From the NCBI GenBank assembly GCA_018712405.1, contig DVHB01000082.1, positions 1 through 36,800 on the forward strand: a stretch of 36,800 nucleotides of DNA. The letters run 5' to 3'. Positions 30,501 through 36,780 of the stretch are shown here, in pieces. The stretch's first letter is position 1. The number at the start of each line of letters is the position of its first letter. The stretch comes from Candidatus Coproplasma stercoripullorum. GTDB taxonomy: Bacteria; Bacillota; Clostridia; Christensenellales; Borkfalkiaceae. The position numbers and the translations under genes are program-made. The notes beneath the pieces are model-generated. The model saw only the letters and a program-made list of their open reading frames with translations. It was not told the DNA's origin and did no database searches.

Positions 30501-30640
30501 GCAATTTAAGCGCTTATTTTTTTATTGTCATTCCATGCGAGCGAGGTGACACGCATTTTGTAACGCAGTAATTTTTGTTCGGTATTGACGAATCTTTGCT
30601 CTGGATATATAATAAAGGTGCAAAGATGGGAGGAAAATAT

Positions 30641-31396
30641 ATGAAACGTAGATTATGTAAGATATTAGTGGCTACTATTCTGATGGCAACGACGCTTATG
30701 TTGAGTGCATGTTCGGGATGTGTCCGCAATGAAGAGTGGGGGTACTTTACAGTAAAGTTTTATGATGACAGAGAAACTGCATACATAACCGGTCTGACTG
30801 AACTTGGCAAACAACAGCGCTTTTTGGTGATACCTGAAGAGGTAGACGGAGTAAAGGTATCTACAATAGGTGAACGGCCCCTTTTGCAAATGTGGAGCAG
30901 TATAGGATCGGCAGATATTTGTAGTGAAAAGCTAGAAAAAGTATACTTTCCTACATCTGTTTATATAGTAGCAGGTTCATTTAGAAATAGTCAGAACTTT
31001 ACTAAAGCGTTGATTATAACGAATGAGGATGTTAATGGACTTGATGAATCATGGATAACAAGATATTATTCAAGTAAAGAGTATTTGAGTTTTTCTTCTC
31101 ACTCGCAAGAATACAATGGCAGAGCAAATGTGTCATACTTTTACAATTATGACATAGAGGAAAATTATGGTTATTATTGGATAGATGATTGGGACTATGG
31201 CGGTAAAATCGAATTTATCCCGCCCGAGCCAGAACGGAAAGGTTATACATTTGGAGGGTGGTATAAGGAGTCGGAATGTATAAACGAGTGGGATTTTGAA
31301 ACGGATGTTCTGCCGGAAGAGCGCACTGAAATAAATGAAGAAGGTGAAGAGGAGGTGGTTTACCAAGAGACAAAGCTATATGCAAAGTGGGTTTAA
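30641..31396 (+). CDS. Lipoprotein with C-terminal InlB B-repeat (Listeria-Bacteroides repeat) motif
   Basis: MKRRLCKILVATILMATTLMLSACSGC lipobox; EPERKGYTFGGWYKESECINEWDFETDVLPEE...TKLYAKWV. Confidence 0.8.
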   Translation: MKRRLCKILVATILMATTLMLSACSGCVRNEEWGYFTVKFYDDRETAYITGLTELGKQQRFLVIPEEVDGVKVSTIGERPLLQMWSSIGSADICSEKLEKVYFPTSVYIVAGSFRNSQNFTKALIITNEDVNGLDESWITRYYSSKEYLSFSSHSQEYNGRANVSYFYNYDIEENYGYYWIDDWDYGGKIEFIPPEPERKGYTFGGWYKESECINEWDFETDVLPEERTEINEEGEEEVVYQETKLYAKWV

Positions 31397-31478: not shown

Positions 31479-31508
31479 AGGCTCCCCTGCCGTTTGGCAG
31501 GGGAGCCT
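31479..31508 (-). terminator. Terminator of the 1415-aa surface protein gene
   Basis: AGGCTCCCCTGCC-GTTT-GGCAGGGGAGCCT; minus strand continues into GTTTTTAT. Confidence 0.85.
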
Positions 31509-31529: not shown

Positions 31530-34500
31530 TTAGTTTTTCTCCTCGTCGGAGCTGTCGCCGCTCTGTTCTGCGGGCGTCTCGCCATCGCCTTCGACGGGCG
31601 TTTCTTCCGCGGAAACTTCTGCAGGCACTTCAGTTGCCTCTGCGGCATCTCCCGCTGTCTCTGCGGGAACTTCTGCCTGTGAGTTGCTTTCGGTGTTCTC
31701 AGCAGGAGTTGCCTCGTTCTCTTCAACGGCCGACTCTGTGATGCCGAGCTTGCGTATATAGTGCTTGCGCTTACCTGCATAAATGTTCTTGCCGAAGTTC
31801 TTTGTGCGCTTTTTCTTCTTGAGCAGATCTCTTATGAATATCGAGACGAGAGTGAAGATAAGTGCTACGGCAAGTATTATCGAAACTACAAGCAACCATA
31901 CGTTGGTGTCGCCCGTTGTATGATCATGGTCGTCTTCAGTATCGTCGGAGCCGTCGGATGTGCCGATATCAACTGTAACGTCGGTCGCCGAGTAGTCGAC
32001 AAACACGTTTACAGCGTTGTGTTCGTAGTCGTTTACTCCCAGGTAAACCAAAGTCTCCGAATAATCGTCGGCGGTGTAGTCGTAACCGGTCTCACCGTCT
32101 GCCGCAGTTTCGGCATTGAAGGGAACATAGCCCTGATCGTCATACAGCGAATAGGTGTAGTACATTGCGCTGTAACCTGCAGGTCGCTGGCTTTCTTCAA
32201 GATCGCCGCTTGCCACAAATTCGTCGAACTTGGCTTCATAGTATGATATGTTCTCTTCAGAACTGTCTATTGAACCCTCTGCAAGCAAACCTTCGCTTCT
32301 GAACAGCTCGATGTACTGCCTTATTATCTGCGAAGAGTAAGCCGAAGTCAAAGTGCTGTAGCCGCTTTCGTCTACGGTTACGTCGCTGTGGTCGAACATC
32401 ACATAGCTTCCGGGTACGCTGCCGTCGTTATTAACGGTGTAGGTATCGCCGTTCGCAGTGACGCCGCTCGTCTCTCTCGCGCCGCTCCAAAGCTCCAGAC
32501 TGTACGAAACTGACTGGTCGCCCGTATGGATATAGAAGGTTACGGTCTGCCATGTGTCTGCAACGTAGTTGCCGTCTGCGTCATAGCCTAATTCGGATAT
32601 GTCGGCTGTTTCGGCTGTTGCTCCTCCAAAGAGCCTTCCGTTTGCGTCATATCTTGCATCGACAGCCGTATACAGATGTTTTGAATTGTCGGTGTTGTCA
32701 TATCTGAGATCGACGCCGCCGTTTTCGCTTCCTATAACAAAGTTTTCAACGGGTTCAGAATAGCTGAGCGTGGCGTTTCCTTCGTCGTCAGTCTCAACGA
32801 TTATATAGCGGTATTCGCCGTTTTCGTATCTGAACACCCTCGTCGAATCGGATGCCACAAGATAGTGGGGGGCCTGGTTGCCCGTACCGTTCACGGCGTC
32901 TGACGCGTTCGTGTAGTATATGGTATCAGGATCGAGGTCTTCGAATGCCGTAGGTTCGCTTGAGCCGGCCGCATAGTATTCGACGCTTTCGTCGTAATAC
33001 TCGCGCGAGTAGTTATACATGTTGGCGAACAGATTGCCTTCACTGTCCTCATACAGTCCGTCGTTGCGGATATAATAAACTACATGATCGCTTGCGTCAT
33101 AGTTTTGATCATCATAGTCGGGCTCGCTGTCCAATACGTTGCCGCGGTTGTCATACCAGAAGCTGTATCTGGGAAGAGTGCAGGAGGAGATAGAAGTGCG
33201 GTCGCCGTTTTCGGTGAGGTACACATACGCTGCGGCGCCTGCGCTGACCTTGACCCTCACGCTCACTGCCTGATAACTTGCGGACGATACGGTTGTGGCG
33301 GAACTTGCCATAAAGCCGTAGTTCATCGCGGCCGCGTCTGCGAATGTCTTTACGGTATTTACGATGAGCAGGGGCTGGATCGTTTCAGTACCGAATATTT
33401 CGTTCCAGATTTCGGCGGCACGCTCTGCGGCCGTTATGCTCGAAAGGCTTAAACCTTTGCTTTCAAGCAGTTCGTTGAGCCATACGTAGGTCGAAGAATC
33501 TTCCTGCGCGTTCTGTATATAAGAATAGAAATGATCCTGGTTTATAAGTCCGGCGTTTTCGTTATTGTTGCGGCCGTCGTAGCCGTCTGCGTCGATATCC
33601 TCTTTGTAAACGACCGACGCGCTGGCTCCGTATGCGCCGTTATAAGATGAGGGACGTGAAATATTGTTCTCTATATTGTTGTTGAGAGCGCCGTAAACGT
33701 CGTCCATGTAGCTGTTTTCGCGGTTGTCAGTCTCTGTAAATGAGAAGCTTGCCGCGTAACTGCCGGTGGACGCGAGGTCAAATACGTCCTCTTCCACGTC
33801 AAAAGTCTGAATATTTGTTATGGCAGCCCAGCCCGACTTATATGCAGCCGAAGTGGTGTCGTAAATAGTGGTATTGCCGAAGCTGAAATCAAGTTTGAAA
33901 GTCATCTCCTCGTCGAGAGTATTCTCAACAAAGAAGAAGCACTGAAGCCAACCGTCGTAAATATCCTCTTCGTCGCCTACGTCAAAAGTTATGCCTGTCG
34001 TGTCTGCCGTGAGCGTTGCCGATACATCTTCATTGTTTGCATCGTATATCTTGATAGTTGCTGCGGTGTAACCGTTCATGTCAGAGGTCTTAACCCACAT
34101 CGAAACTATCTTATGTCCGCCGGGGGCAACAGTAAAGCTGCCGTCGCTGCCTGAAATTTCTGCGGTGTAAGCCGCGCCGCGCGCAGACAGCAGCATGAGA
34201 GCCGTACTGTCGGAATCGGCGCCGGGAAGAGACTGTGCGTTTGCAAACGCGTCTTCGATCAGCGTGTCGTATTTGCCTACAATAGAGCTGTTGTCGGAGA
34301 GCGCCTGCGAAAGTCCCGATAATGTGAATGAACCGATAACGTCGCTTGACGTGTTGATGTCCAGTCCGTAGTTCATGTGAACGCTTCCGTTATCGCCCGT
34401 GCCCACGTTTATGAACGAGGGGGTGGAAGAGGATGTCACATAGTTGTCCGAATCTTTTGTCAGCGCCGCAGAAACGGTTGAGGAGTTCAGCGCGCTGTCC

Positions 34501-35777
34501 GTCCTGCCCTGCCTCCATGCGAGGTCTATCAGGAAGTTTCTGCCGTAGCCCTCGTCAAAATCTGCTCTGTTTTTGTAATTGTCGTAAGAGAATACCTTCT
34601 CGTCGTCGTTGTCGGTTATCGTGCATACGGTATCGCTCTCGTCGTGGGTATCGGAGTTAACAAGATAACCGGCGTCGACAGCTGCCTGATAGTTTTCACT
34701 CTCGGAAATGTCGGAATAGAGCGTGCAGGTGATGTCGTCGAAGAAAGCATAGCCTTCAAGCGTCCTCGAATAGTCGCCGTCGTCGTCCGCTCTGCCTAAT
34801 CCTACCTCAACGGTTATTGAGCTCGTGGCAAAGTCGCAGCCCTGTACGAAGATGGTATACTGAACCCAGCCGTTGTTTTCAGTCACGCCGGCAGTATTTA
34901 TCGCGTCGATATAGAACGTATCGATCGTAGTTGATCCGACAGTCTGCTCTACAGCGATGAAGGCGCCCAGCCCCTCTTCGGGCGTTTCGCCGTTGCGGTT
35001 ATACATAAGGTCGCTCGTCTTTACCCAGACCGAGATCTCCGCCGCTGTATTCGGTTCGAGCGATATTGTGCTCGAAGAGGTGTACGTCTGCGCGGTGCCG
35101 TAGCGGTAGCTCAGGTTCCTGTAGTTGTGCACCATAAGAACGTGGCTCTCGTAAGGTTCGGTGAGTTCCTCGTCGGTAAAGTAGTCGCCGTTTTCGTCGG
35201 CATACAGAGTAACCGTCTCGCCGTTTTCATCGACGTAAGTGGCGGTATTGTCCGAGCCTTCGGTTATTACGTCGTGGGTGAGGGGATTGTCTATAAGCGT
35301 AAGGTCGGCGTCCTCGTCGTCGTTTATCGCGGAATGCGGGTTAGCATAGGGAATGTCGCGTTTGCGCATACCGTTGTAATCGACGTACTCCTCGTCGTAG
35401 TTTTCGTCGTCGGGGTCGAGGTTATAGTTGTCCTCCAGCCTGTCCGCAAGATCGTCGGCCGAAATGGTATCCCAGCCGCTCGCGCTCGTGTCGATGATTC
35501 CGTTCATCGAATAGTTTGTCTGACCGGAGGTTGAAGCTGACCAGTTGTTGGGCGTATATATAATATGAGTTTTATCGTCGCTGTCGTTGAAAAACTCAAA
35601 GTTGCCGTTTAAAATGGTCTGAGTGTCCGTCGGGGAGGTGGTCGTTTCATTGTCGTCATCGTCGTTTTCGACGGTGCACGCCGCGGCAAGGCCGAGCGAA
35701 ACCGCCATCACGCCCGATAACAGGGCAATGGAAAATTTCCTCATTCCGGATTTTAAGTGATATCTCTTTTTGTACAT
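31530..35777 (-). CDS. Large acidic surface lipoprotein with repeated jelly-roll-like motifs and C-terminal TM anchor (1415 aa)
   Basis: Lipobox LGLAAAC; repeated AEISVWVKTSDL / KIVSMWVKTSDM / AVSVRVKVS strands; C-terminal VWLLVVSIILAVALIFTLVSIFIRDLLKKKKR TM and acidic tail; AGGTG RBS. Confidence 0.88.
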   Translation of the reverse strand: MYKKRYHLKSGMRKFSIALLSGVMAVSLGLAAACTVENDDDDNETTTSPTDTQTILNGNFEFFNDSDDKTHIIYTPNNWSASTSGQTNYSMNGIIDTSASGWDTISADDLADRLEDNYNLDPDDENYDEEYVDYNGMRKRDIPYANPHSAINDDEDADLTLIDNPLTHDVITEGSDNTATYVDENGETVTLYADENGDYFTDEELTEPYESHVLMVHNYRNLSYRYGTAQTYTSSSTISLEPNTAAEISVWVKTSDLMYNRNGETPEEGLGAFIAVEQTVGSTTIDTFYIDAINTAGVTENNGWVQYTIFVQGCDFATSSITVEVGLGRADDDGDYSRTLEGYAFFDDITCTLYSDISESENYQAAVDAGYLVNSDTHDESDTVCTITDNDDEKVFSYDNYKNRADFDEGYGRNFLIDLAWRQGRTDSALNSSTVSAALTKDSDNYVTSSSTPSFINVGTGDNGSVHMNYGLDINTSSDVIGSFTLSGLSQALSDNSSIVGKYDTLIEDAFANAQSLPGADSDSTALMLLSARGAAYTAEISGSDGSFTVAPGGHKIVSMWVKTSDMNGYTAATIKIYDANNEDVSATLTADTTGITFDVGDEEDIYDGWLQCFFFVENTLDEEMTFKLDFSFGNTTIYDTTSAAYKSGWAAITNIQTFDVEEDVFDLASTGSYAASFSFTETDNRENSYMDDVYGALNNNIENNISRPSSYNGAYGASASVVYKEDIDADGYDGRNNNENAGLINQDHFYSYIQNAQEDSSTYVWLNELLESKGLSLSSITAAERAAEIWNEIFGTETIQPLLIVNTVKTFADAAAMNYGFMASSATTVSSASYQAVSVRVKVSAGAAAYVYLTENGDRTSISSCTLPRYSFWYDNRGNVLDSEPDYDDQNYDASDHVVYYIRNDGLYEDSEGNLFANMYNYSREYYDESVEYYAAGSSEPTAFEDLDPDTIYYTNASDAVNGTGNQAPHYLVASDSTRVFRYENGEYRYIIVETDDEGNATLSYSEPVENFVIGSENGGVDLRYDNTDNSKHLYTAVDARYDANGRLFGGATAETADISELGYDADGNYVADTWQTVTFYIHTGDQSVSYSLELWSGARETSGVTANGDTYTVNNDGSVPGSYVMFDHSDVTVDESGYSTLTSAYSSQIIRQYIELFRSEGLLAEGSIDSSEENISYYEAKFDEFVASGDLEESQRPAGYSAMYYTYSLYDDQGYVPFNAETAADGETGYDYTADDYSETLVYLGVNDYEHNAVNVFVDYSATDVTVDIGTSDGSDDTEDDHDHTTGDTNVWLLVVSIILAVALIFTLVSIFIRDLLKKKKRTKNFGKNIYAGKRKHYIRKLGITESAVEENEATPAENTESNSQAEVPAETAGDAAEATEVPAEVSAEETPVEGDGETPAEQSGDSSDEEKN

Positions 35778-35961
35778 ATAACACCTGCAATTATTTATAG
35801 TAAAGCAAAAACTTTAAAAAAACCGTACTATGATATTTTAATATAAAAGGTGATTATAAGCAAGCAATTTTCCGACGGTTTAAATGAAAAAACAGTTAAA
35901 TTTATTTAAAATGCGCAAACTTTCTTTTGGAAGAGCGCCCGCACGGGCGCGCGGAGGCAGT

Positions 35962-36327
35962 ATGGGAGGTTTAAAAAATACGGCGAAGGCAGTATTGTCG
36001 GGTGCGGCGGTGGGTATCGCCAACGGATTGTTCGGCGGCGGTGGCGGCATGATAGCTGTTCCGCTCCTCTCCGGCGCGATGAATTTTGAGGAAAAGGCGG
36101 CGCATGCCACGGCCATTCTCATAATAGCGCCGGTAAGCCTGGCAGGAGCCGCAGCATATATAATTTCCGGTTATGCTTTGCCATATATAATAATACCCGC
36201 AGCCGTCGGAATGACGGCGGGCGGGGCTTTGGGGGCGCAGCTTTTGAACAAATTGCCGCTTATGGCAGTTAAAGTCATTTTTGTTGCGGTGATGCTCGCC
36301 GCGGGTATAAGGATGATATTGCCGTAG
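35962..36327 (+). CDS. Half-size TauE/SafE (TSUP, DUF81) family permease subunit, first gene
   Basis: MGGLKNTAKAVLSGAAVGIANGLFGGGGGMIAVPLL; GGAGG RBS before ATG 35962; about 4 TM. Confidence 0.82.
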   Translation: MGGLKNTAKAVLSGAAVGIANGLFGGGGGMIAVPLLSGAMNFEEKAAHATAILIIAPVSLAGAAAYIISGYALPYIIIPAAVGMTAGGALGAQLLNKLPLMAVKVIFVAVMLAAGIRMILP

Positions 36328-36381: not shown

Positions 36382-36780
36382 ATGGGTTTTATAGTAATAA
36401 TGTTGCTCGCTTTCAGCGCGGGACTTTTAGGGGGAATGGGCATGGGCGGCGGGACCATTCTTATTCCGGCCCTCACAATTTTTTTGAACATCGGGCAGCA
36501 TGCGGCGCAGGCGGCCAATCTTCTAGCATTTCTGCCAATGGCGCTGATCAGCCTGAAGATCCACTCCGGTAACGGGTTGGTAAGGGCACGCGGGGCGCCG
36601 TGGATAATAATACCTGCGGTCGCGCTTTCGGTCGGCGGGGCTTTCCTTGCGGCGTATACTCCTGCTGATATTTTGCGCAGGATGTTCGGCGCGTTTTTGA
36701 TTGCCCTCGCGGCGAAGCAGGCATACGATGCTTTCTATGCCTGTAAGATGAGTAAAGATAAAAAGAACAGAGAGGTATAA
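36382..36780 (+). CDS. Half-size TauE/SafE (TSUP, DUF81) family permease subunit, second gene
   Basis: MGFIVIMLLAFSAGLLGGMGMGGGTILIPALTIFLNIGQHAAQAANLLAFLPMALISL; about 4 TM. Confidence 0.85.
   Translation: MGFIVIMLLAFSAGLLGGMGMGGGTILIPALTIFLNIGQHAAQAANLLAFLPMALISLKIHSGNGLVRARGAPWIIIPAVALSVGGAFLAAYTPADILRRMFGAFLIALAAKQAYDAFYACKMSKDKKNREV

Follow-up and report, generated by a model that had tools for sequence, protein, structure and literature searches.

We analyzed a 36,800-nucleotide window, that is, the whole stretch of DNA considered here, from Candidatus Coproplasma stercoripullorum of the family Borkfalkiaceae, order Christensenellales (contig DVHB01000082.1, positions 1 to 36,800). Our subject is a gene on the negative strand at positions 31530 to 35777, whose coding sequence (CDS) extends from an ATG at 35777 to a stop codon at 31530 and specifies a predicted surface protein of 1415 amino acids (aa). 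The first-pass annotation of this DNA had claimed such an open reading frame (ORF), and the frame indeed proved open over its full length. The gene is present in a single copy, no paralogs were found in its own genome, and orthologs occur family-wide. Frames of 161, 122, and 135 aa on the positive strand within the CDS look like shadows of it. A strong intrinsic terminator on the negative strand at 31479 to 31508 (13-bp stem with 10 GC pairs, followed by a T run) lies 3′ of the gene, with no negative-strand gene directly after it.

The protein begins with a lipoprotein signal peptide (residues 1 to 34; 35676 to 35777, on the negative strand like all features of the protein given below), MYKKRYHLKSGMRKFSIALLSGVMAVSLGLAAAC, in which a basic n-region and a hydrophobic core precede the lipobox LAAAC. 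Cys34 (codon at 35676 to 35678) is the sole cysteine ahead of residue 314. The predicted ectodomain (residues 35 to 1291) matches the earlier description of some 1300 residues rich in Asp, Ser, Thr, and Tyr in an acidic protein, as it contains 229 acidic (D+E) versus 51 basic (K+R) residues, has a pI of 4.05, and comprises 10% Ser, 10% Thr, and 8% Tyr. It ends in an acidic low-complexity linker (residues 1273 to 1291; 31905 to 31961) that is modeled with low confidence and shares mostly 5 to 55% identity with homologs. The C-terminal transmembrane (TM) helix, NVWLLVVSIILAVALIFTLVSIF (residues 1292 to 1314; 31836 to 31904; hydropathy of 3.05), had also been recognized at first pass together with its basic stop-transfer segment. 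This juxtamembrane segment (residues 1315 to 1348; 31734 to 31835) carries 13 K/R among its 34 residues, contains the strongly basic stretch KKKKRTKNFGKNIYAGKRKHYIRKLG, and retains the sequence KNVYxGKRKHYIRKLG in near relatives. Of the acidic tail of about 75 residues proposed earlier, the distal 67 residues are acidic, whereas the juxtamembrane part is not. This distal, predicted cytoplasmic Glu/Ala/Pro tail (residues 1349 to 1415; 31533 to 31733) contains 21 D/E and a single K/R, and it varies between species.

Both termini were read from more than 50 distant homologs. The signal has the n-region, h-region, and lipobox cysteine within about 40 residues that are expected of a lipoprotein, and the Cys34 column is invariant in a 26-row family alignment and at least 90% conserved in a 45-row alignment. 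Genes for Lgt (PF01790, E value of 6 × 10−33) and LspA (PF01252, E value of 1 × 10−24) are present in the same genome. At the other end, all complete homologs in the family set have the TM helix, with a mean Kyte-Doolittle hydropathy of 2.6 to 3.5, and a basic stop-transfer segment follows it at every complete family C terminus. An N-terminal lipid combined with a C-terminal TM helix is supported as the best reading of this protein, because the family conserves the two predicted anchors and the genome encodes the lipoprotein enzymes. The tails of homologs in several families of the order (denoted by f numbers in our sample) end in aromatic-acidic motifs such as DYDSFNE, DEFKD, DEFDD, and DPYND (f3, f10, f16, f18, f20, f30, f32, and part of f1). 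A conserved C-terminal motif holds in some families only, and the aromatic-acidic end is missing in Coproplasma.

To characterize the ectodomain, AlphaFold models were built from 26-row alignments for residues 50 to 700 (predicted local distance difference test [pLDDT] of 83, predicted template-modeling score [pTM] of 0.82) and residues 660 to 1285 (pLDDT of 84, pTM of 0.82), the latter with low pLDDT at model residues 617 to 626, in the acidic linker. A Foldseek search with the first half matched SGBP-B (E value of 2 × 10−7), a tandem of carbohydrate-binding module (CBM) family 22 (2 × 10−6), a MAM domain (6 × 10−5), CBM16 (1 × 10−4), and CBM61 (4 × 10−4). The jelly-roll matches concern two domains, D1 (residues ~52 to 355; 34713 to 35624; NGNFE ... 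ENNGWVQY ... GYAFFDD) and D2 (residues ~390 to 660; 33798 to 34610), and reached probabilities of up to 1.0 with E values of 2 × 10−7 to 1 × 10−3; those for D1 span 2 × 10−7 to 5 × 10−4. Cupin and vicilin matches in the same list were disregarded owing to their low probability. A profile-profile comparison related D1 to D2 with a probability of 98.3% (E value of 1.9 × 10−14). In the models, at least two CBM/MAM-type jelly rolls follow one another in tandem, D1 and D2 being homologous, and a modeled fold typical of jelly-roll CBMs was found for these two only. The D3 region (residues ~690 to 1135; 32373 to 33710) is confidently modeled as a mixed helix/beta-sandwich with a beta-hairpin-rich insert at about residues 872 to 1030. 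It yielded only weak lectin-like matches in Foldseek against the PDB (E value of at least 0.02) and did not match D1 or D2 significantly by profile; to regard it as one more jelly roll carrying an insert is speculation. A helical segment and terminal beta strands follow (residues 1136 to 1272; 31962 to 32372), as delimited by model secondary structure and conservation.

No sequence-family match was found in Pfam, NCBIfam, or PDB sequences, including any named CBM family profile, and the structure searches returned no enzyme fold, in agreement with the earlier statement that the protein has no recognizable catalytic domain. Nor did AlphaFold and Foldseek reveal a known complete family with such a topology. 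In the jelly-roll fold of D1 and D2, as modeled, the protein resembles CBM16, CBM22, CBM61, CBM4, and SGBP-B of Bacteroides (7kwb). Unlike these, it has neither a sequence-family match nor an attached enzyme. SGBP-B also differs in being an outer-membrane lipoprotein without a C-terminal TM helix, and MAM domains differ in being eukaryotic, protein-binding, and disulfide-bonded. The MAM domain of receptor tyrosine phosphatases (8a1f, 2c9a) nevertheless provides an example of a jelly roll in a single-pass membrane protein, albeit with no sequence match.

Lipid anchors joined with TM helices, as predicted here, are known from the Bacillus subtilis CtaC, QoxA, and YidC-type lipoproteins, which, in contrast to the 1415-aa protein, are enzymes or insertases with small ectodomains. 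A precedent for a lipobox and a C-terminal TM helix within one exported bacterial protein also exists in a DUF4349-domain protein (candidate 9 of PMC10924467). However, our protein has no DUF4349 match in Pfam, and the candidate lacks an ectodomain of about 1250 residues with tandem jelly rolls. We found no description of a giant jelly-roll version of such a protein as a clade-wide core gene, and no paper describing such a surface protein from Borkfalkiaceae or Christensenellales.

Homologs were detected in 178 of 201 Borkfalkiaceae genomes, covering all 18 genera sampled and including the metagenome-assembled genomes of Candidatus Coproplasma stercoravium, Borkfalkia faecigallinarum, and Scatosoma pullistercoris. 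When the family profile was run against a sample of the order, 173 of 297 genomes from 15 families matched, usually with one copy per genome; the genomes sampled elsewhere in the class yielded just three matches, all weak and partial. One Borkfalkiaceae genome carries two convergent copies of the gene (G085, contig 12, 64363 to 72235). Homologs range in length from about 830 to 1740 aa. Across the same loci, identity to the target is 28 to 80%, compared with 48 to 77% for rsmF, 46 to 86% for the exonuclease, and 76 to 97% for seryl-tRNA synthetase. Judged from these sequences, the target diverges faster than its neighbor genes, a pattern that a surface protein would be expected to show. No plasmid carriage was found, and a link to sporulation was rejected, as Spo0A, present in 264 of the 297 order genomes irrespective of the protein, does not discriminate.

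With its Sec signal, large ectodomain, C-terminal TM helix, and basic residues, the protein resembles sortase-anchored LPXTG proteins; it differs in that no LPXTG sorting motif lies ahead of residue 1292, a long cytoplasmic tail is predicted, and the clade has no sortase. Comparison with sortase (PF04203) across the 297 order genomes showed that 172 had the protein only, 101 sortase only, one both, and 23 neither. The sole overlap (G238) has a protein match with an E value of 4 × 10−4 that is probably false, and several of the 23 genomes with neither hold homologs missed by the profile. The exclusion is near-perfect over the 33 families of the order, and no sortase was found in the genus itself. 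In a Spo0A tree of 36 genomes, from which f20, f24, and f29 are absent, all sampled protein-bearing families fall on one side of a single branch (support of 100/99), and sortase-bearing families adjoin. SLH domains of the S-layer type were found in none of 31 genomes, including that of our species.

Upstream of the gene, and divergent from it, are two genes on the positive strand for half-size TauE/SafE permeases. The split is in swapped order: the gene for the C-terminal half (35884 to 36327; Pfam TauE positions 119 to 237) lies closest to the surface-protein gene and is followed by that for the N-terminal half (36382 to 36780; positions 2 to 109), both pointing away. Of 95 loci whose upstream sequence was long enough, 77 showed this arrangement, and these came from 14 of 15 families; in this count, some Borkfalkiaceae loci represent the same genome entered twice. 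An adjacent TauE is missing in f24 and at five f1 loci, and three f6 loci carry the pair on the same strand. The TauE position also served as a predictor: of 12 TauE positions in profile-negative genomes, 10 had a large ORF where expected, each with one hydrophobic segment at either terminus, and the family hidden Markov model also matches five of the 10 (E values of 5 × 10−34 to 3 × 10−15). The two failures were L154 (f9) and L156 (on a short f18 contig), and a control TauE locus from f24 (L162) showed no such large ORF. In the vicinity, a SpoVB/MurJ-like flippase is common, and in several families it lies directly downstream. It, YetF (DUF421), Ppx/GppA, and the Rnf complex recur in the surroundings in several families (L089, L093, L139, L046, and others), and the remaining neighbors (rsmF, the exonuclease, seryl-tRNA synthetase, Rnf) are ordinary. 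Adjoining the gene on its other side is a 273-aa ORF (30575 to 31396), likely with an internal ATG start, that has its own lipobox (LMLSAC) and a List_Bact_rpt/Flg_new repeat. It is predicted to be a second, small surface lipoprotein and is not kept in most neighbors.

We favor, with confidence and doubt in about equal parts, the explanation that the protein is a membrane-held jelly-roll surface scaffold or glycan-binding receptor and a core, usually single-copy surface protein of a sortase-less Christensenellales clade. It would be exported by Sec via its lipoprotein signal, lipidated at Cys34 by Lgt, and cleaved by LspA, as the lipobox and the enzymes suggest. The conserved C-terminal TM helix and basic stop-transfer would fix the other end and leave the charged tail in the cytoplasm, so that a chain of CBM/MAM-type jelly rolls would form a loop anchored in the membrane at either end. 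Going by their fold, the jelly rolls most likely bind glycans. Were the ligand the cell's own wall or capsular polymer, the protein would act as a membrane-to-envelope tether and display scaffold; were it a host or dietary glycan, the protein would be an adhesin or receptor. It may stand in for covalently wall-attached surface proteins in this lineage. We favor this explanation because Cys34 is invariant, the C-terminal TM helix is constant, and Lgt and LspA are present; because the best matches of the jelly-roll folds are glycan binding, D1 and D2 are homologous, and no enzyme domain occurs; and because the gene is near-universal in its family, spread over 15 families of the order, and rare and weakly matched outside. 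The conserved TauE position, which predicted 10 undetected homologs, points the same way, as do the fast divergence, the absence of sortase where the protein is present, the absence of SLH domains, and the flippase that often adjoins.

Several observations weigh against this explanation. The wider family does not share the lipid anchor throughout, as a Sec signal or an uncleaved helix takes the place of the lipid elsewhere in the order: a lipobox was found in f1, f3, f6, f8, f10, f14, f16, f24, and f29, whereas homologs in f18, f20, f28, f30, and f32 have a signal without a clear lipobox cysteine, often with an AxA-like end. A loose lipobox pattern still matched two f32 members, which was regarded as chance. 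In f19 (L157, L158, and L163 to L166), the N-terminal helix is apparently uncleaved, and these homologs apparently have a TM anchor at both ends and a short tail. The C-terminal TM helix is kept by lipobox-less homologs (L105, L096, L097, L101, L107, L155, L161) and is present in every complete ORF order-wide. Because of this constancy and the variation of the N terminus between families, C-terminal anchoring is the constant element, and N-terminal lipidation would be the rule in this lineage and not essential to the family at large. The earlier proposal of a tether at both ends thus appears to hold for the family and not for all of its wider relatives. Moreover, jelly rolls can also serve protein-protein contacts, and MAM is among the matches; a few jelly rolls may not span a thick Gram-positive wall, so that the protein may act within the envelope; and the conserved neighbors include genes without an envelope role (rsmF, exonuclease, Rnf). 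Finally, the sortase exclusion is one clade and one evolutionary event, since sortase loss and protein gain share one branch of the Spo0A tree, and it may be coincidence; Fisher p-values for it do not count as independent evidence. We consider it rather unlikely that a clade-defining, doubly tethered giant jelly-roll protein replaced sortase-dependent display upon sortase loss in one Christensenellales branch, coupled genetically to a split TSUP permease, and serves as the principal scaffold at the surface in many uncultured gut families.

A possible, if unlikely, alternative is that the protein is a scaffold of the inner wall zone that binds nascent wall polymer and aids envelope synthesis, for example with the SpoVB/MurJ-like flippase, and is no outward-facing adhesin. 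Both chain ends are predicted to be held at the membrane, the flippase is frequently nearby, and the gene is core even in f28, which keeps it despite genomes of 0.8 to 1.3 Mb. However, the rapid variation of the ectodomain in sequence and length is more typical of outward-facing proteins, and no known wall-binding domain was recognized. It is improbable that the protein serves the neighboring split TauE/TSUP permease as an accessory binding subunit that captures a sulfonated or sulfated ligand close to the membrane. The divergent adjacency to both TauE halves and its success in predicting homologs would fit such a role, yet f24 and one f1 genus keep the protein without an adjacent TauE, G208 (f9) carries the TauE pair but not the protein, the divergent genes share no operon, and TSUP permeases are not known to require a giant binding protein. 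Very improbable is a receptor signaling across the membrane through its tail, for which the predicted single-pass N-out C-in topology and the enrichment of aromatics near the C-terminal end (9 of 11 in f32 versus 2.6 expected, and all in f10, f16, and f18) would speak, since this end is missing from Coproplasma, from f29, and from the greater part of f19 and f28, with a mixed state in f24, the tail ranks with the least conserved parts, and no signaling domain is present.

A membrane-held jelly-roll surface scaffold or glycan-binding receptor, as we favor, would matter for a clade whose members include small-genome gut Clostridia that are uncultured and have an undescribed cell surface; the surface biology of the clade would thereby become testable. 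A single-copy surface protein common to 15 families and unannotated in Pfam and NCBIfam would constitute a clade marker. It may also provide an obvious handle for antibodies or cell sorting and is a candidate for protein display in a lineage without sortase.

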